Source of the DNA: a virus
DNA: 25,311 nt
Strand: one strand, 5' to 3'
Virus record (IMG/VR): IMGVR_UViG_3300018876_000090
Coordinates: 1-25,311 of that record
Shown here: positions 16,856 to 25,081 of the stretch, piece by piece
Position numbering within the stretch: position 1 is the stretch's first letter
Layout: the number at the start of each line of letters is the position of its first letter
Made by a program: the position numbers and the translations under genes
Notes under the pieces: model-generated
What the model was told of the DNA's origin: nothing
What the model saw: the letters and a program-made list of their open reading frames with translations, nothing else
Databases searched by the model: none

Positions 16856-17882
16856 TCAACACTTTGGTGCGCGTGGTGATAGTGGACAGTGTCTAGATTA
16901 CTATCAGAAATTCTATGATAATGTTTTCTTCCCTTCCATAGTGGAGAAGGGTGTATCATCTGTATACATCCTAGGTGATACATTCGATCGTCGCAAGTAT
17001 GTCAACTTCAATACTCTTGCTCGCGCGAAGAAAATGTTTTTTGACAAGCTTCAAGAAATGGATATGCCTGTAGTGATGATTGCAGGTAATCATGACACAT
17101 ACTTTAAAAACACCAATGAGGTCAATTCACCAGATCTTCTTTTGGTTGAATATTCAAATATCACGATTATTGATAGTCCTACCACGATTATTGATGGCGT
17201 ATATGTGTGTATGCTTCCATGGATCTGCGCTGATAACTATCAAGCAAGCTTAGAGGAAATCAAGAATACCAAAGCAGAAATCTGTATGGGCCACCTTGAA
17301 ATCGCAGGCTTTACGATGTACCGTGGACATGAGTCTCAGGATGGACTAGATACTTCAATCTTCAACAAGTTTGATACAGTATTTTCAGGCCACTACCATC
17401 ACAAATCTTCTAAAGGCAATATCCACTATTTGGGCAACCCGTATGAGCTAACATGGCAAGACTACAATGATCCACGTGGGTTTCATATTTTTGATTTGCA
17501 GACTCGTGAGTTAGAATTCATTCAAAATCCTTACACCATGTTTGAGCGTTACGAGTACGATGATACACAAGAAGTCATTAATGATTTTTCACGATTCACT
17601 GACAAGTATGTTAAAATCATTGTTGTAAACAAGACTGATCTATATAAATTCGATCTTTTCATCAATGGACTGTATCAAAGTAATCCTCAAGATGTTAAAA
17701 TTGTAGAGGACTTCTCAGAGTTTACCGATGGAGAAGTCGATGAAAATATCAATTTAGAAGATACATCATCTGTATTGATGGATTATATTGAATCACTTGA
17801 GACTGATAGCGACAAAGAAAAGATTAAGAAATTTATGAAGTCTTTGTATATGGAAGCATTGAATACAACAGAACATGATTAA
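16833..17882 (+). CDS. 47: Recombination nuclease subunit gp47 (Mre11/SbcD type)
   Basis: This 349-residue protein (T4 339) is the metallophosphoesterase subunit that resects double-strand ends with gp46. Motifs: DQH (8-10), GDTFDRR (48-54), GNHD (85-88), then GHLEIAGF and SGHYHHK, which supply the remaining metal ligands. It starts within gp55 (23-base overlap) and its end overlaps gp46 by 8 bases, so the three are translationally linked. The C-terminal third is acidic and variable, as usual. Confidence 0.96.
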   Translation: MTIAVITDQHFGARGDSGQCLDYYQKFYDNVFFPSIVEKGVSSVYILGDTFDRRKYVNFNTLARAKKMFFDKLQEMDMPVVMIAGNHDTYFKNTNEVNSPDLLLVEYSNITIIDSPTTIIDGVYVCMLPWICADNYQASLEEIKNTKAEICMGHLEIAGFTMYRGHESQDGLDTSIFNKFDTVFSGHYHHKSSKGNIHYLGNPYELTWQDYNDPRGFHIFDLQTRELEFIQNPYTMFERYEYDDTQEVINDFSRFTDKYVKIIVVNKTDLYKFDLFINGLYQSNPQDVKIVEDFSEFTDGEVDENINLEDTSSVLMDYIESLETDSDKEKIKKFMKSLYMEALNTTEHD

Positions 17883-19587
17883 CTTTAAGCAAATATCTTG
17901 GAAGAATTTTCTATCAACAGGAAATTCTGCAAATACAATCCAATTAAACCGTTCTGCATCTACACTCATTGTAGGTAAGAACGGTGAAGGTAAGTCTACT
18001 GTATTGGATGCAATCACCTTTGCATTATTCGGCAAGCCTTTCCGTAATATTAACAAACCTCAACTAGTCAACTCTATCAATGGAAAGAATTGTCTGGTAG
18101 AGGTAGAGTTCGATATTGGAAGTGTTTCGTACAAGGTTATTCGTGGTATTAAGCCTGGTATCTTCGAGGTTTATTGTAACGGCCAATTGATGAATCAGGA
18201 TGCCGCTGCAAAAGACTATCAAGATGTATTAGAGCGACAGATTCTAAAGCTTAGTTACAAAACATTCACCCAAGTTGTTATCTTAGGTTCTGCATCGTTT
18301 GTCCCATTCATGCAATTGCCTGCGGCACAACGACGTAGTGTAATTGAAGATATTTTGGACATCAGTGTGTTCTCCACCATGAACACCATTCTTAAAGAAA
18401 AGATTGCGAATACTAAAGACGAAATCCAAGCAGTGGATAATCGTATTACTATTTCTAAGAACGCAGTCAATGTTCAAAAACGCATGATCGATACCTTAGT
18501 CTCTTCTAAGAAAGATCAAGTATCTCAGATCGAAAAACAAATCTCTGATAACATTGCCGATATTGCAAAGGCTGAAACACAGTTTAAAGATATCGATAAG
18601 AAAATTAAAGCCATTTCCGTCGATATTGAAGATAACGATGATCTAGATACTTGGATTGCTGCCGCGATTCGTGCAAAATCATCGTTCTCTTCTACAATGG
18701 AACGCAATGAGAAAACTTTAAAATTCTTTGCAAAAAATGAAACATGCCCATCATGTTCTCAAGGAATTCCTCATACCCACAAGGAATCCATCGTCTCTAC
18801 TTTATCGACCGATCAGGAAGAGCTTGAAGCTCAAATTGCAACTATCGAAGATGCACATTCTAAGTTGATCGAACGACAGAAGAAAACTAACAAGCTTAAT
18901 AAAGAAATCACAGTATTAAATTCACAAGCTCATGCTTTGACTATGTCTATTAGTAATCTTGTAAAGCAGAACGAGAAGCTTAAGAAAGATATCCAAGACA
19001 CCCAAGATGATACTGTGAATATTGATGTTGAGAAAGCAAAGCTCAGGGAGATTGCCGAGGAAGCAATGACCCTAGTAAATCGTAAGAACGAACTACTTGA
19101 CGCTAAACAGATACAAGATGTTGCAACCCTTTTGCTCAAAGACACTGGCGTAAAGACTGCAATCATACGTGAATATCTGCCAGTCATGAACAAGTTGATT
19201 AACGGTTACCTGAGTGCAATGGACTTCTATGTTCACTTTGAACTGGACGAATCATTCAATGAGGTTATCAAGTCTAGGTATCGTGATGAGTTTACCTATG
19301 CTTCATTCTCGGAGGGTGAAAAGATGCGTATCGATCTTGCCATCTTGTTCACATGGCGTCAGATCGCAAAGATGAAAAATTCTGTCAATACCAACCTGTT
19401 ACTCCTGGATGAAATCTTTGATTCATCACTCGATGTTGCAGGTACCGACTACTTCCTCACTATCATGAACGCTCTACAGGACAAAACCAACGTGTTCGTC
19501 ATTAGTCACAAGGGAGATCAACTGTTCGATAAGTTTCATAGTGTAATACGTGTAGAGAAGAAAAACGACTTTTCTGTAATACTTTAG
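17875..19587 (+). CDS. 46: Recombination ATPase subunit gp46 (Rad50/SbcC type)
   Basis: This 570-residue SMC-type ATPase (T4 560) pairs with gp47. Walker A is GKNGEGKST (34-42), followed by a coiled-coil arm. The zinc-hook CPSC (291-294) is at the tip, then the returning coiled coil, the ABC signature FSEGEKMR (478-485) and Walker B LLLLDE (508-513). It overlaps gp47 by 8 bases. The complex acts in recombination-dependent replication and host DNA degradation. The gp46 stop lies inside a GTAATACTTT word (19576-19585) that recurs downstream of the next gene. Confidence 0.96.
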   Translation: MINFKQISWKNFLSTGNSANTIQLNRSASTLIVGKNGEGKSTVLDAITFALFGKPFRNINKPQLVNSINGKNCLVEVEFDIGSVSYKVIRGIKPGIFEVYCNGQLMNQDAAAKDYQDVLERQILKLSYKTFTQVVILGSASFVPFMQLPAAQRRSVIEDILDISVFSTMNTILKEKIANTKDEIQAVDNRITISKNAVNVQKRMIDTLVSSKKDQVSQIEKQISDNIADIAKAETQFKDIDKKIKAISVDIEDNDDLDTWIAAAIRAKSSFSSTMERNEKTLKFFAKNETCPSCSQGIPHTHKESIVSTLSTDQEELEAQIATIEDAHSKLIERQKKTNKLNKEITVLNSQAHALTMSISNLVKQNEKLKKDIQDTQDDTVNIDVEKAKLREIAEEAMTLVNRKNELLDAKQIQDVATLLLKDTGVKTAIIREYLPVMNKLINGYLSAMDFYVHFELDESFNEVIKSRYRDEFTYASFSEGEKMRIDLAILFTWRQIAKMKNSVNTNLLLLDEIFDSSLDVAGTDYFLTIMNALQDKTNVFVISHKGDQLFDKFHSVIRVEKKNDFSVIL

Positions 19588-19676: not shown

Positions 19677-21728
19677 ATGGAATCAAATGACATCCTGGCT
19701 AAACTACTAGCCAACGAGAACATCAATGTTGTACGTGGACAGGTAACCACGGCAAGTTTTAACATTGGCACACGCACTCTAGTTCTTCCGCAATGGAAAA
19801 ACCTGGAGGCAGTGACTGAAGAGATGCTAATCTTGCATGAAGTCGGTCATGCTCTATTCACTACCGACGAGTATGCAGAATCTCAAAAAGACCACCCTCG
19901 TTCATTTGGCCACTATTTGAACGTTGTAGAAGACGCACGAATTGAGCGTAAAATGAAAGACCGGTATCCCGGTGCCCGCAAAACCTTTATTGGTGGTTAT
20001 GCGGACTTGGCAGCACGCGACTTCTTTGAAATTGCCGGCCGCGATTTAACTGCATATAATTTTATTGATCGAATTAATCTGTATTTTAAACTTGGCGCAA
20101 AATGTGGCGTTAAATTTTCAAAATCTGAAATTAATTTCATATATGATATTGAGAAAACGGATAGTATTAAAGATGCAATTGAATTAACTGAACGCCTTTA
20201 TGCATTCTGCAAGCAAAATGCAGAGGAAGAAATTGAAACGTCTAAAATTACACAGAATCTGGATGATGAAGATGATTCAGATGAAGACGATTTAGATGAT
20301 CAATTAGAAGGCAATTACGACTATTCAGATGAAGAAGGCGAAGAAGAGGAATCTGAATCAGATATTAACTCTGGCGAAAATGATATCGAAAAGAAATTGC
20401 AATCTGAAACGATGCAATCATTAGATTCTAAATTGCAAGATAGTGCAGATGTTGATACAGAATTCAATTATTATGAACCTGCATTTCATCAAAACGATTT
20501 AGATGATGAGCTTATTGTTGAATATAAAACCGTATTACGTGAATTAACAGATTCAATAAGCGAAGATTCATTTCAATTTTATTCCAATAAAGCATCTCAA
20601 TTGCGTCGTGATAATGCTTCTATCATTAATAATATGGTAAAAGAATTTGAAATGCGTAAGTCAGCTTCTAATTGGAAGCGTGCTCGCACAGCAAAAACAG
20701 GTCAAATTGATACAAAGAAGCTTTATGGTTATCAAATTAAAGACGAATTGTTTAAGCAATTAACTGTAATTAAAGATGGCAAAAAACACGGAATGCTTTT
20801 CTTGCTGGATTGGTCTGGTTCAATGGGCGACTATATGAACGAAACTATTGGCCAGCTAATTAATCTTGCAATGTTTGCTCGCCGAATTAATATTCCATTT
20901 CAAGTATTTGCATTTACTTCTGCATATCGGAGTACTTATTCGCACCTCGATAAGCCTGAATATGACGAATCCAAAAATATTAAAGGCTTAGGCAATGCTT
21001 ATAATGTGTCATTATTAGAATTGTTTAGTGATCGTATGAACGAATCAGAATTTAATAAAATGGTCACATTTTTAATTTCACGCCCCTATTATTACTCACG
21101 TAATTATGGTTTAGGTGGCACTCCTTTAAATGAAGCATTGTTGTATTTGACTGATTATATTGGAAAATTTATCCAACAACGATCTGTAGAAAAAATGGTA
21201 TTAATTACATTAACAGATGGAGAAGGTGGCAGAATTGTTGGAGAACGCAGATTAGATGTGCGTCAATATAATGTTGAATCTAATAAGCATATTAATGTGC
21301 GTAATTTTATAAAAGATCCTATTACAGGAAAACAATATACTATTACTGATGATAGTAATACACAAACTCGCGTATTATTAACAATTATTAAAGATCGATA
21401 TAATGTTTCAAATATCGGATTTAATTTAGTCTCTAATCGTCGTCACGAATTATTTCGTTTGTCATACTATATTTTAAATAAGGATATTGATTTACATAAA
21501 ATGCAATTAGATTTGCGAGCAAATAGATTTGTCGAAGTTTCAAACGGTGCATATGATCATTATTATGTAATTGATATTAAAGGATTGCGTGTAGAAAATA
21601 ATATAGATCTGTCTGCAGTTAATAGTGATATGTCGGCAGCAAAAGCTTCTAGGGTATTTGCAAAGGCAATTGGAACCAATAAAACATCTCGAGTGGTGCT
21701 CAATCAGTTTGTCTCAGAAGTAGCATAA
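19677..21728 (+). CDS. CobT-like protein: HExxH metallopeptidase-like domain plus VWA domain
   Basis: This is a 683-residue protein. The N-terminus carries a zincin motif HEVGH (54-58) and, 27 residues further, NVVEDARIE (82-90), which fits a gluzincin third ligand (Glu85). Residues 195-240 are an extremely acidic linker. The C-terminal half is a von Willebrand A domain with MIDAS DWSGS (377-381), GGTPL (479-483) and TDGEG (512-516), like CobT, the partner of the CobS AAA+ ATPase in cobaltochelatase-type complexes. A CobS-like gene follows at 22176. The ATG at 19677 has GGAG (19667-19670) six bases upstream; longer starts would overlap the promoter. Codon choice changes abruptly near 20040. 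A role in metal insertion is unlikely to be its phage function; remodelling or proteolysis of a host or virion target is inference. Confidence 0.85.
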   Translation: MESNDILAKLLANENINVVRGQVTTASFNIGTRTLVLPQWKNLEAVTEEMLILHEVGHALFTTDEYAESQKDHPRSFGHYLNVVEDARIERKMKDRYPGARKTFIGGYADLAARDFFEIAGRDLTAYNFIDRINLYFKLGAKCGVKFSKSEINFIYDIEKTDSIKDAIELTERLYAFCKQNAEEEIETSKITQNLDDEDDSDEDDLDDQLEGNYDYSDEEGEEEESESDINSGENDIEKKLQSETMQSLDSKLQDSADVDTEFNYYEPAFHQNDLDDELIVEYKTVLRELTDSISEDSFQFYSNKASQLRRDNASIINNMVKEFEMRKSASNWKRARTAKTGQIDTKKLYGYQIKDELFKQLTVIKDGKKHGMLFLLDWSGSMGDYMNETIGQLINLAMFARRINIPFQVFAFTSAYRSTYSHLDKPEYDESKNIKGLGNAYNVSLLELFSDRMNESEFNKMVTFLISRPYYYSRNYGLGGTPLNEALLYLTDYIGKFIQQRSVEKMVLITLTDGEGGRIVGERRLDVRQYNVESNKHINVRNFIKDPITGKQYTITDDSNTQTRVLLTIIKDRYNVSNIGFNLVSNRRHELFRLSYYILNKDIDLHKMQLDLRANRFVEVSNGAYDHYYVIDIKGLRVENNIDLSAVNSDMSAAKASRVFAKAIGTNKTSRVVLNQFVSEVA

Positions 21729-21742
21729 AAAGTAATACTTTT
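21728..21742 (+). other. Inverted repeat after the CobT-like gene
   Basis: AAAAGTA-A-TACTTTT is a perfect 7-bp inverted repeat around one base, starting at the last base of the stop codon. It could be an operator or a weak terminator (5-bp stem, 5-base loop, ending in T). The word AAAAGTAATACT also occurs at 19603-19614 upstream of the CobT-like gene. Confidence 0.5.
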
Positions 21743-21748
21743 GACATA

Positions 21749-21777
21749 TGTTCAATAATTGGATGTTTTGGTATAAT
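21749..21777 (+). promoter_or_regulatory. Promoter upstream of the 54-residue gene
   Basis: TGGTATAAT (21769-21777) is an exact extended -10 element, with TGTTCA at the -35 position (17-base spacing). The sequence from TTTGG (21767) to the ATG and next codon (21811) is 41/45 identical to 22026-22070. The leader contains the ribosome site CGGAG. Confidence 0.65.
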
Positions 21778-21805
21778 AAACCATAGACGAACAACGGAGA
21801 ACGTT

Positions 21806-21970
21806 ATGAAACTAAAAGAAGCCTTCATGGAATACCTGGAAAATGCCGTAGAAGCAATTGCTTCTGGCGAGGTAGACTCAGACGAGGTTGTACAGGAACT
21901 GGTAGACTTGGGGATGCATATCTCCGTTGCCCGGGACATGGTTTATACAGCAATTGAAAGTAGTACCTAA
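21806..21970 (+). CDS. Small 54-residue acidic protein
   Basis: This open frame starts at ATG 21806 with CGGAG (21795-21799) six bases upstream and a dedicated extended -10 promoter. The translation begins KLKEAFMEYLENAVEAIASG and ends SVARDMVYTAIESST. It is amphipathic and acidic and reads as two or three helices with no membrane segment. I do not recognise a family. The well-formed promoter, ribosome site and clean stop make it a credible gene. It lies between the CobT-like and CobS-like genes and shares its promoter/leader with the next unit, so a small adaptor or regulator of that module is possible (inference). Confidence 0.62.
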   Translation: MKLKEAFMEYLENAVEAIASGEVDSDEVVQELVDLGMHISVARDMVYTAIESST

Positions 21971-21995
21971 GTATTATAAAATAGTATACTTTTTT
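21969..21995 (+). terminator. Weak AT-rich terminator candidate
   Basis: AAGTAT (21969-21974) and ATACTT (21986-21991) form a 6-bp stem around an 11-base loop, followed by T residues to 21995. It starts within the stop codon of the 54-residue gene. The stem is all but one pair A-T, so termination would be inefficient. The central AGTATACT (21983-21990) is also a perfect palindrome and could instead be a protein site. Confidence 0.35.
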
Positions 21996-22007
21996 GGTGT
22001 ACTACTA

Positions 22008-22036
22008 TGTACAAAAAATAGAAGATTTGGTATAAT
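22008..22036 (+). promoter_or_regulatory. Promoter upstream of the 31-residue membrane peptide and CobS-like gene
   Basis: TGGTATAAT (22028-22036) is an extended -10 element, with TGTACA (22008-22013) at the -35 position (17-base spacing). It is the near twin of the promoter at 21749-21777. Transcripts would cover the 31-residue peptide and then the CobS-like gene, 15 bases downstream of its stop. Confidence 0.65.
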
Positions 22037-22064
22037 AAACCATAGACAGACAACGGAGAATATT

Positions 22065-22160
22065 ATGAAATTTATGACTGATCTTACACAAGCTACTTTG
22101 GTTGCCATCTTGATCGGTGCTCCATTTGCCTTCTATTTTGCCTTTATGATGCAACCTTAA
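22065..22160 (+). CDS. 31-residue single-pass membrane peptide
   Basis: ATG 22065 has CGGAG (22054-22058) six bases upstream and the same leader as the 54-residue gene. The product begins KFMTDLTQAT and then has one continuous hydrophobic segment (LVAILIGAPFAFYFAFMM, about residues 12-29) ending at QP. It would span or insert in the inner membrane once, with a short N-terminal tail. There is no cleavable signal pattern. I recognise no family. Its place in the CobT/CobS-like interval suggests it could anchor or target that complex, or act as a small inner-membrane effector; both are inference. Confidence 0.6.
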   Translation: MKFMTDLTQATLVAILIGAPFAFYFAFMMQP

Positions 22161-22175
22161 ACTGAGGATTATATT

Positions 22176-23345
22176 ATGAAACGTGTGACTGACGAATTCA
22201 AGCAAGAATTCATTTCGGGCCTAAATGCAATGTTCCCTGACGTGGTTACATCAGGGCTCGTATCTAACGCTCAGATTACTGAGTATATGAAAAAGACTAA
22301 AGATAAAAAGTGGCCGACGTGGCTCACTCGTCCCGACGCTCGCGCAAGTCGTGGCGTGTATTTTATTACTGCGCAAAAGAAATCAAATGTTGTGCCTATG
22401 AATGTTCCAAAACCCGTGGCAGTAGTGCAATCTACTGACACTAAGCCGCTAGTTCCTGTAAAGGATCCAGCATTCGTACCTTTCGGTATTTACAAAGATG
22501 TTGAAACTATCGTCAAGTCTCGACAGTTTTATCCTGTGTATATCTATGGACCTACTGGTAACGGTAAGTCTACTGCAGTAGAACAGGCTTGCGCAAAGCT
22601 CAAGACTCCGATGATTCGTGTTAACTTAAACATGATGACAGACGAAGATCAATTGATCGGCACTAAGACTCTTGTAGATGGTAACATCGAAATTGTCGAA
22701 GGTCCAGTATTGATTGCGATGCGCGCAGGTATTCCGCTATTGCTCGATGAACTTGATGCGGGTTCTGCAAATACTTTGCTGTGTTTGCAGCCAATCCTTG
22801 AAGGTAAACCGTACTTTTTCAAGTTGAAGAATGAATTGATTATTCCTGCAGAAGGTTTCAACGTCTTTGCTACTGGTAATACCAAAGGCAAAGGTTCAGA
22901 TGATGGCCGTTATATCGGTACAAACATTCTCAACGAAGCTTTCTTGGAACGCTTTGCGATTACTCTAACTCAAGATTATCCTTCAACTGGTGTTGAACGG
23001 AAAATCGTAGAAAATATCATGGGTCAATATGACTGTTACGATGAAGACTTTGCAACATCCCTTGTAAAATGGGCTGATGCAATCCGTCGAACCTTCAATG
23101 ATGGAGGTATCGATGAAAGTGTTACAACTCGCCGACTGATTCACATTGTACGCGCCTTTAGTATCTTTAAAAACAAGACTAAGGCAATTGAGTTGTGTAC
23201 CAATCGATTTGATGAAGTAACACGACAGGCTTTCATTAACCTCTTTGAAAAGGTGAGTACTGATCCGGATTCTGATCTACTTGCTTCTAATGAAAGCGCA
23301 ACTGTTATTATTAATGATGGAATTGATGATGGAGATACACTATGA
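22176..23345 (+). CDS. cobS: CobS-like / MoxR-type AAA+ ATPase
   Basis: This 389-residue protein belongs to the CobS-like AAA+ ATPases carried by many T4-type cyanophages. An N-terminal domain (about 1-65, ending TRPDARASRGVYFI) and a Pro/Val linker precede the ATPase core. The core has Walker A GPTGNGKST (125-133), Walker B LLLDE (188-192), sensor 1 FNVFATGNT and an arginine-finger region AFLERF. CobS/MoxR ATPases work with VWA-domain partners, and a CobT-like VWA protein is encoded just upstream. GAGGAT lies six bases before the ATG. Its stop overlaps the start of the next gene (ATGA). The cyanophage name cobS reflects similarity, not proven cobalamin synthesis. Confidence 0.9.
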   Translation: MKRVTDEFKQEFISGLNAMFPDVVTSGLVSNAQITEYMKKTKDKKWPTWLTRPDARASRGVYFITAQKKSNVVPMNVPKPVAVVQSTDTKPLVPVKDPAFVPFGIYKDVETIVKSRQFYPVYIYGPTGNGKSTAVEQACAKLKTPMIRVNLNMMTDEDQLIGTKTLVDGNIEIVEGPVLIAMRAGIPLLLDELDAGSANTLLCLQPILEGKPYFFKLKNELIIPAEGFNVFATGNTKGKGSDDGRYIGTNILNEAFLERFAITLTQDYPSTGVERKIVENIMGQYDCYDEDFATSLVKWADAIRRTFNDGGIDESVTTRRLIHIVRAFSIFKNKTKAIELCTNRFDEVTRQAFINLFEKVSTDPDSDLLASNESATVIINDGIDDGDTL

Positions 23346-23689
23346 AATATAAAGACATGACATTCACCTACTCTACACTGACACGTATCCAACGTAAAGC
23401 TGTAGATGCATTTATTGCCCTAGATCCTTCTTTAGCAACTGCTAATAGTATTTCGCGCCAACGTTTGGAGGAATTGTTTCTACAAGCTCGTAAAACTGAT
23501 CCTAAGCTTGGTTATCCTGCATTCGTGACCCGATGTGAACGAGTCGCCCGCGGAGTCTATCAATGGCCGAGTCCAGGTGCAGTTGTGAATCTTTCTGCGA
23601 TTAAATCTCCTGAGGTTGCTAAGACGGTAGAACAGACTGAATTTGAAGAAACGTTTGCCAAAGAAATGGCAGATTGTGGTATAATTTAA
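23342..23689 (+). CDS. 115-residue protein sharing the CobS-like N-terminal domain
   Basis: It is coupled to the AAA+ gene by an ATGA overlap. Residues about 21-75 look related to residues 13-64 of the ATPase. Both have a short helical stretch, then 'SISRQRLEELFLQARKTD' (here) against 'LVSNAQITEYMKKTKD' (ATPase), followed by Pro, an aromatic pair, TR, a few residues and RGVY. The rest is a Pro/Val linker and an acidic C-terminal helix. No catalytic motif is present. A stand-alone copy of the ATPase recognition domain would fit an adaptor or inhibitor of the ATPase. The family is otherwise unknown to me. Confidence 0.7.
   Translation: MKYKDMTFTYSTLTRIQRKAVDAFIALDPSLATANSISRQRLEELFLQARKTDPKLGYPAFVTRCERVARGVYQWPSPGAVVNLSAIKSPEVAKTVEQTEFEETFAKEMADCGII
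23677..23685 (+). promoter_or_regulatory. Extended -10 element at the end of the 115-residue gene
   Basis: TGGTATAAT is an exact extended -10 motif, the same nonamer as at 21769 and 22028. It lies in the last codons of the 115-residue gene and would start transcription near 23692, only about 48 bases before the terminator at 23703-23740. TTGCCA upstream is at a poor 19-base spacing. The motif could be coincidence in coding sequence. Confidence 0.45.
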
Positions 23690-23769: not shown

Positions 23770-24015
23770 ATGACTAAAATTGAACGCTTGAATGCTTACT
23801 TGTCAACCGGTGCCACTGTTACTGCTAAACAGATTGGTAGCATGTTCGGTATCGCAAATCCTACTGCCGCAGTTCATGCCTTGCGCAGTCAAGGTGTTTG
23901 TGTTTATGGCAACAAAGTTACACTACATGATGGTACTCCCTCCACAAAATACCGTGTTGGTGCTCCAAGCAAGAAAATGATCCAAGCTGCACACTCAGTT
24001 GGCGCATTCAACTAA
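23770..24015 (+). CDS. Small winged-helix-like DNA-binding protein
   Basis: This 81-residue protein begins at ATG 23770, with GGAG (23761-23764) five bases upstream. The N-terminal helix KIERLNAYLSTGATVTAKQI, then GSMFGIANPTAAVHALRSQG and the beta-hairpin 'VCVYGNKVTLHDGTPSTKYR' read as a small winged helix-turn-helix: a recognition-helix candidate at about 28-40 and a wing at about 43-62. Similar short proteins are common in T4-type cyanophages, with no known role. It lies between a terminator and a promoter overlapped by a long dyad, so it is a candidate local regulator. Confidence 0.7.
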   Translation: MTKIERLNAYLSTGATVTAKQIGSMFGIANPTAAVHALRSQGVCVYGNKVTLHDGTPSTKYRVGAPSKKMIQAAHSVGAFN

Positions 24016-24089: not shown

Positions 24090-24419
24090 ATGAAAAAAAG
24101 AATTTTGACGAAGAGCAATGATGTTCCAACAGGTATGAAGTTCGATAACGATAAACTTCGTTACGATCTGATTCCTCCTCTTGCTCAAGCTGAAATGGTG
24201 AAAGTGCTCACATTTGGAGCAGCAAAATATAAACCAAACAATTGGCAACATGTAGATGAAGCACTAGATCGTTATTTTGCAGCATTCGAACGACACGTGT
24301 GGGCGTGGAAGATGGGTGAAACCACTGATCCTGAATCTGGTATCCATCACTTGGCGCATGCCGCATGTTGTTTAGCTTTCCTATACGAGCATGACGTCAA
24401 ATATTCTAAAAAGGATTAA
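24090..24419 (+). CDS. dATP/dGTP diphosphohydrolase-like protein (DUF5664)
   Basis: This 109-residue protein has the ordered motifs of the DUF5664 family: GMKFDNDKLRYDLIPP (15-30), TFGAAKY (41-47) with NNW, ERH near 67-69, then DPESGIHHLAHA (80-91). The conserved acidic and His residues would bind metal and a dNTP. Members are annotated as MazG-like dATP/dGTP pyrophosphohydrolases. The ATG at 24090 was chosen because of its ribosome site; a longer GTG-started frame would begin upstream of the promoter dyad. It ends 2 bases before gp45. A nucleotide-pool role fits the replication neighbours, but the exact substrate is not visible. Confidence 0.72.
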   Translation: MKKRILTKSNDVPTGMKFDNDKLRYDLIPPLAQAEMVKVLTFGAAKYKPNNWQHVDEALDRYFAAFERHVWAWKMGETTDPESGIHHLAHAACCLAFLYEHDVKYSKKD

Positions 24420-24421
24420 TT

Positions 24422-25081
24422 ATGAAATTAAGTAAAGACACACTAACACTAATCAAAAACTTTGCTTCTATCAACGGATCATTGATGCTGAAAGAAGGCA
24501 ATAAGCTTTCTACTATCTCAGAAGCAAAAAACGTCATGGCTAATGGTAGTATTACCGAAACATTCCCACAAGACTTTGGCATCTATGATGTCAATGAATT
24601 CTTGGGCGTTATTAGTTTGTTTGATGATACACATCTTGATTTTAAAGACAAGTATGTAACCATTAGTGACGGTGGCACGTCAAAGATTAAATACTTTGCG
24701 GCAGGTGAAGGCGTTGTGCGTTCTGCTCCAGCTCAAATCAAGTTTCCAGAGGCCGATGTTTCATTCGATCTTTCGCAAGAACAGATTGCAATGATTCTTC
24801 GTACTGCATCAGTACTTAAAGCTAGTGATGTTGCAATCAAGGGTGAAGATGGTGAGTTGAAAGTTCAAGTTAGCGATAAGAAGAATGATACATCTAATGC
24901 TTATGAAGTTACAATCGGTTCTACTGATAAAGAGTTTACCGCAAACTTGAAAGTAGAGAACCTTAAAATGCTAACAGGAAATTACACCGTTGAGGTTTCT
25001 TCTAAGAAGATTTCCAAGTTCACTAATAAAGATATTGATCTCACATATTTTGTTGCTATTGAAGCCGACAGTAAATTCTAA
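24422..25081 (+). CDS. 45: Sliding clamp gp45
   Basis: This 219-residue protein (T4 228) forms the trimeric clamp that tethers the polymerase and activates late transcription with gp55. The start KLSKDTLTLIKNFASINGSL, then LFDDTHLDFKDKYVTISDGG and the terminal DIDLTYFVAIEADSKF agree with the gp45 family. It is followed after 36 bases by the clamp loader gp44, as in T4. It begins 2 bases after the DUF5664 stop with no strong ribosome site, suggesting coupling. Confidence 0.94.
   Translation: MKLSKDTLTLIKNFASINGSLMLKEGNKLSTISEAKNVMANGSITETFPQDFGIYDVNEFLGVISLFDDTHLDFKDKYVTISDGGTSKIKYFAAGEGVVRSAPAQIKFPEADVSFDLSQEQIAMILRTASVLKASDVAIKGEDGELKVQVSDKKNDTSNAYEVTIGSTDKEFTANLKVENLKMLTGNYTVEVSSKKISKFTNKDIDLTYFVAIEADSKF

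Follow-up and report, generated by a model that had tools for sequence, protein, structure and literature searches.

What does the cobS gene of marine T4-like cyanophages do together with its neighbour? This core gene is listed among the auxiliary metabolic genes for vitamin B12, and its partner is a peptidase to some and a mis-annotated CobT to others. We addressed this question with a 25,311-base virus contig from IMG/VR (IMGVR_UViG_3300018876_000090; the whole stretch is referred to as the window, and all positions are whole-window coordinates). It carries a gene for a protein that joins an N-terminal zincin-like domain to a VWA domain and, downstream, a gene for a CobS/MoxR-like AAA+ ATPase. 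With moderate confidence, we read this module as a phage AAA+ remodelling machine with a docking VWA protein that bears a zinc-peptidase domain, and with a 115-residue protein (p115) as adaptor. A preliminary description of this DNA had claimed five open reading frames within 19677-23689, and all five are present. The three that belong to the module, with their sites, are:

19677-21728, plus strand: zincin-VWA protein, 683 residues, matching PHROG_459 'peptidase' (E 1.5e-158), with an N-terminal HExxH metallopeptidase-like domain, an acidic linker and a C-terminal VWA domain with MIDAS
19836-19850, plus strand: zinc-site motif HEVGH, residues 54-58, found in every relative that covers the motif, including further relatives in genome contigs
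19920-19946, plus strand: NVVEDARIE, residues 82-90, with E85 as the presumed third zinc ligand; N82, E85, D86 and R88 are invariant in 69 sequences
20808-20825, plus strand: MIDAS motif DWSGSM (D378, S380, S382), completed by T482 (21120) and D514 (21216)
22176-23345, plus strand: CobS/MoxR-like AAA+ ATPase, 389 residues, matching AAA_5 (E 2.3e-13) and PHROG_249 (E 1.9e-102)
22176-22373, plus strand: ATPase N-domain, about residues 1-66 by alignment, homologous to p115
22548-22571, plus strand: Walker A, GPTGNGKS; G125, G128, N129, G130 and K131 are invariant
22737-22751, plus strand: Walker B, LLLDE; D191 and E192 are invariant
23342-23689, plus strand: p115, a stand-alone copy of the ATPase N-domain with a linker and a conserved acidic/aromatic C-terminal motif

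The residue positions and their conservation agree with the order described earlier for the first protein, namely an HExxH/NxxED N-terminus, an acidic linker (about residues 207-240) and a MIDAS-bearing VWA domain. In the alignment of 69 distinct relatives, no sequence that covers HExxH lacks it; N82, E85, D86 and R88 are conserved to 100%, and so are D378, S380, S382 and D514 of the MIDAS, with T482 at 99%. Judged from these alignments, both sites are strongly constrained, the zinc site as well as the MIDAS. The protein combines HExxH with a conserved Glu as presumed third ligand, the gluzincin-type arrangement. AlphaFold modelled residues 1-206 as a zincin-like domain (mean pLDDT 92.4), with HExxH on the helix 45-61 and E85 on the later helix 75-96. 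The closest solved folds found by Foldseek were projannalysin, selecase and abylysin, followed by ArdC, IrrE and LTA4H, all with E > 0.05 and the best with a weak E of 0.076. A PDB sequence search with profiles of the VWA-zincin proteins gave no significant relative; its best match was again projannalysin (E 0.11). The prediction of a zincin is therefore based on the motif and the order of the helices, combined with the weak fold matches. In our preferred reading the zinc peptidase is probably active.

Does the machine need to cut? VWA partners of MoxR and of midasin that have no peptidase domain perform remodelling. The zincin domain might likewise bind metal and clients while the ATPase does the work, and the weak fold matches to solved peptidases are compatible with this. 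The catalytic Glu of HExxH is, however, invariant wherever the motif is covered, and metal binding alone would not require it. We regard remodelling without proteolysis as a somewhat unlikely alternative.

Are the two large genes one unit? We tested this with the viral contigs retrieved with the VWA and ATPase proteins, plus three annotated phages. In all loci with enough sequence (69/69), the zincin-VWA gene precedes the ATPase gene, which bears out the earlier view of a single module. In the phage collection, both genes have equal record counts (Synechococcus 365/365, 'Cyanophage' 61/61, Prochlorococcus 24/24). We conclude that they form one linked unit. The window pair is a MoxR-type AAA+/VWA pair, with a Walker A/B ATPase and an adjacent VWA gene with a full MIDAS. 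It also belongs to the phage CobST/'peptidase' pairs, as its genes match PHROG_459 and PHROG_249, are adjacent and lie on the same strand. The pair is usually found between two T4-like genes:

17875-19587, plus strand: T4-like gp46, recombination endonuclease subunit, the upstream neighbour; gp46 is upstream in 43/45 testable loci
24422-25081, plus strand: gp45, sliding clamp, the downstream neighbour; gp45 is downstream in 68/70 testable loci

An HExxH-bearing VWA partner, in some cases divergent, adjoins the ATPase also in Stenotrophomonas, Vibrio, Rhizobium, Roseobacter, Microcystis and Salmonella phages. Replication genes adjoin the pair not only in T4-like phages but also in Stenotrophomonas DLP6 (primase/helicase), and DNA polymerase III alpha is near it in Salmonella SSU5 and in a Rhizobium phage. 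The ATPase family is wider than the pair: in the Herelleviridae of Staphylococcus and Listeria the adjoining gene has neither HExxH nor a recognisable MIDAS, and we excluded these neighbours from the pair. Since the pair stays next to replication genes in diverse phages, we favour a replication, recombination or host-takeover protein over a virion protein as the client. As for a defence system, PADLOC yielded only weak P-loop matches (E>0.001), and this candidate was rejected.

Does the pair serve cobalamin synthesis? The cobST pair of tailed viruses has been described and read as a cobaltochelatase (PMC8651126), with the cyanophage cobT called 'mistakenly annotated as a peptidase', and the chelatase proposal was repeated in PMC9503304. 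According to it, a mosaic chelatase made of the phage proteins CobS and CobT and of CobN from the host would raise the cobalamin supply. The window ATPase indeed scores on the CobS model TIGR01650 (E 1.3e-27) and shares 31% identity with a bacterial CobS, but it reaches only 96.9 bits against the curated cut-off of 558.55. In the PDB, its sequence is matched best by midasin (2e-36) and less well by CobS (3.5e-24). The VWA protein matched none of the CobT models (PF06213 and PF11775 at E<=1 in Pfam, TIGR01651 at E<=0.1 in NCBIfam). CobN was found in 0/10 phage records, some of them partial, whereas the control genomes were positive; host CobN could be recruited. Both subunits of the B12-independent class I ribonucleotide reductase are encoded in 9/10 records, and cobalamin supply for a class II reductase, a link that has been suggested, is therefore not relevant to them. 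Because CobN was not found in these ten records and nine of them have the class I enzyme, remodelling or proteolysis, which the preliminary description had preferred, fits better than cobalamin synthesis, and we consider a viral cobaltochelatase improbable.

The chelatase proposal has one further point in its favour, as non-phage HExxH relatives pass the Pfam CobT model. Our family profile retrieved from genome contigs chromosomal relatives (e.g. of Halomonas, Pseudovibrio, Allochromatium and Desulfallas) that carry HExxH...NIxEDxRIE and match VWA; most of them have an ATPase-family match nearby, and several are above the PF06213 cut-off. In hhalign comparisons, the N-domain profile of these relatives aligned with the phage N-domain at 98.9% probability (E 1.4e-17) and with a CobT-like protein from an Acinetobacter plasmid at 98.7% (3.8e-16). 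The latter protein lacks the HEVGH-type motif, and its zinc site reads QEVAK...EEARVE. A Caballeronia CobT-family protein is also without HExxH and gave no significant alignment to the phage profile. Against the chelatase proposal, the phage family keeps its zinc site invariant although these two CobT-family proteins are without it. As a lead, the CobT N-domain may be a degenerate relative of a zincin that looks active, a reading built on two CobT-family proteins that are both below the NCBIfam CobT equivalog cut-off. It disagrees with the mis-annotation statement in PMC8651126, since the phage sequence appears to retain what a peptidase needs.

On the Acinetobacter baumannii plasmid (L109:1544-8679), the CobT-like/MoxR pair has a sigma factor and DNA polymerase III alpha beside it. 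Rhizobium phage RHph_N2_6 shares these neighbours, which suggests that the plasmid is a phage-plasmid.

Do the sequences offer any hint at the client? Among 61 distinct ATPase C-termini, 29 end like a bacterial single-stranded DNA-binding protein (SSB), i.e. with an acidic residue and mostly (I/V/T)PF at the stop codon; the bacterial SSB tip is DDDIPF (PMC5872125). Such an end occurred in 0/457 other open reading frames of >=150 residues, and in one 167-kb record the ATPase was the only one ending in PF among 233 frames of >=80 residues. On a tree of 67 rows, the tail label required 12 changes (>=7 forced by starred branches) and was present in both deep groups. The tail was spotted post hoc and its counts come from related sequences, hence the Fisher value cannot be read as a probability. 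A bolder extension, which we rate as unlikely, would be an ATP-driven zinc protease tethered to the replisome: the ATPase tail, mimicking the SSB tip, would deliver the VWA-protease to SSB-binding replication or repair proteins of host or phage, which would then be remodelled or cut, and CobT would descend from, or share an ancestor with, such an active protease.

Elsewhere in the ATPase family, two relatives (L106:3042-4625 and L105:5384-8530) have an intein-like insert directly after Walker B, with the junctions LLLDE/C...THN/C. In L105 the insert is split over two open reading frames with a possible homing-endonuclease gene of 484 residues in between, an arrangement that suggests a natural split intein.

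The third protein, p115, resembles the ATPase N-domain, as proposed earlier: its first 80 residues are homologous to that domain (hhalign probability 98.4%, E 4e-15). The start codon of p115 (ATG) overlaps the stop codon of the ATPase gene. After residue 80, a variable linker leads to a conserved tail (E-F-F-x-x-L...G-I in most members), and the gene adjoins the ATPase gene in 43/89 relatives. No PHROG matched p115 at E<=0.001, and no significant match was found among 50,697 phage records. We conclude that p115 is a real family, conserved and, as far as searched, undescribed. A fold search with p115 gave no significant match, and reading it as a winged-helix protein is a guess. The idea that its tail mimics that of phage gp32 (FFxxI/L motif) was rejected, as a scoring test ranked gp32 6th and 9th, with negative scores.

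How might these parts work together? The proposal builds on the linkage, the intact Walker, MIDAS and HExxH-Glu residues, the zincin-like fold, the N-domain homology and the position among replication and recombination genes. The ATPase would probably assemble into a ring. With its MIDAS metal site, the VWA protein could dock on the ring and present a client. After the ring has strained or unfolded this client, the zinc-peptidase domain might cleave it, or at least bind it. Free p115, where present, may compete with the N-domains of the ring, or extend them, as an adaptor.

We count the conserved order in 69/69 loci, the equal cyanophage counts, the invariant sites, the zincin-like model of the N-domain, the midasin match, the replication neighbours and the SSB-like tails in favour of such a remodelling machine with a peptidase domain; the negative CobN search and the class I reductase count against the cobalamin role. 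Several points weigh against it. Catalysis, complex formation and action on a client are predictions from sequence, model and linkage. The gp47-46-45-44 block is conserved anyway, and the location among replication genes may be partly historical. The SSB-like tail is absent from the window ATPase itself, which ends in IDDGDTL, and from the cyanophage tails examined. Finally, for a similar pair in jumbo phages, a role in virion assembly was proposed by Iyer et al. (PMC7824862). If this held here, the pair would be a chaperone-protease that processes or folds structural proteins, and the MoxR-VWA pair of the Acidianus two-tailed virus, covered by the same published proposals, would be a parallel. 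Against this, several phage groups have the pair among replication genes and away from those for head and tail. The window contains four exact T4-type late-promoter strings, a count not above chance; all lie at <=13.3 kb in the head-gene part and none is near the module. A role in virion assembly is in our view unlikely.

Are the two tiny genes between the large ones also parts of the machine? They are preceded by a direct repeat:

21747-21811, plus strand: 65-nucleotide promoter/ribosome-binding-site repeat, before p54; the second copy, 85% identical, is at 22006-22070, before p31
21806-21970, plus strand: p54, a frame of 54 residues, not conserved and present in near-identical contigs only
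22065-22160, plus strand: p31, a hydrophobic peptide of 31 residues, weakly conserved, with a homologue in L005/L006 only

The preliminary description had counted both as components of a complete machine, and this did not hold. Most relatives have a gap of 40-100 nucleotides at their site. The p54 protein had no match in phages, and the p31 homologue is a 32-residue peptide, 47% identical, at the same place in one sister lineage. Because p54 is confined to near-identical contigs and p31 to this lineage, we ruled them out as constant or conserved parts of the module. Of the small genes, which had looked undescribed in the preliminary description, p115 alone is both conserved and, as far as searched, new to the literature. 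The repeat carries a TATAAT-like box and a ribosome-binding site and resembles a promoter cassette for small genes; judged from these elements, both frames may be expressed.

The source of the window is a T4-like phage. Its gp23 is 58-61% identical to gp23 of cyanophages and of Pelagibacter phage HTVC008M. The gene order is gp55, gp47, gp46, zincin-VWA, p54, p31, ATPase, p115, winged-helix protein, dATP/dGTP diphosphohydrolase N-domain protein, gp45 and gp44, with T4 gene names assigned by order and by annotated relatives. The winged-helix (HTH_39-like) protein of 81 residues (23770-24015) between the module and gp45 is kept in most relatives. The short protein before gp45 (24090-24419) matches PF18909, the dATP/dGTP diphosphohydrolase N-terminal domain, with E 1.4e-34. 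An Rfam scan of the window gave no match.

The invariant zinc site, the lack of CobN and the class I reductase turn the function of a common ocean-phage gene pair into a directly testable dispute, and the SSB-like tails and the 115-residue N-domain copy are concrete handles for finding the target.

How does the module compare with known systems? Projannalysin/selecase, abylysin, Wss1 and IrrE/PprI have the HExxH helix fold in common with it (the top Foldseek matches being weak), but these proteins are without a VWA or AAA+ partner in the same gene pair. Midasin (Mdn1/Rea1) shares an AAA+ ring working with a tethered MIDAS domain, but it is one giant eukaryotic chain without a zincin. CobNST likewise combines an AAA+ protein with a VWA partner, and the non-phage HExxH proteins link the phage N-domain to that of CobT; in contrast to CobNST, the window pair is below the curated cut-offs, has an intact zinc site and no CobN, and its ATPase N-domain is different (no PF12556 match). 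The pair as such is already known (PHROG_459 'peptidase' and PHROG_249 'porphyrin biosynthesis'), and its novelty had been overstated in the preliminary description. A metallopeptidase-VWA and MoxR pair was published in 2021 for jumbo phages of group 2.2 (PMC7824862); compared by architecture, it likewise has a metallopeptidase in front of VWA in one protein and a MoxR ATPase alongside, whereas the window pair lies among replication genes of T4-like phages. The viral CobST, i.e. the cyanophage core 'peptidase' and 'cobS' (PMC8651126), is like the window pair in genes, order and synteny. The published cobaltochelatase reading is unsupported for the window pair, whose VWA protein represents a distinct lineage (about 30-37% identity to isolates) and to which the window adds the 115-residue N-domain copy.

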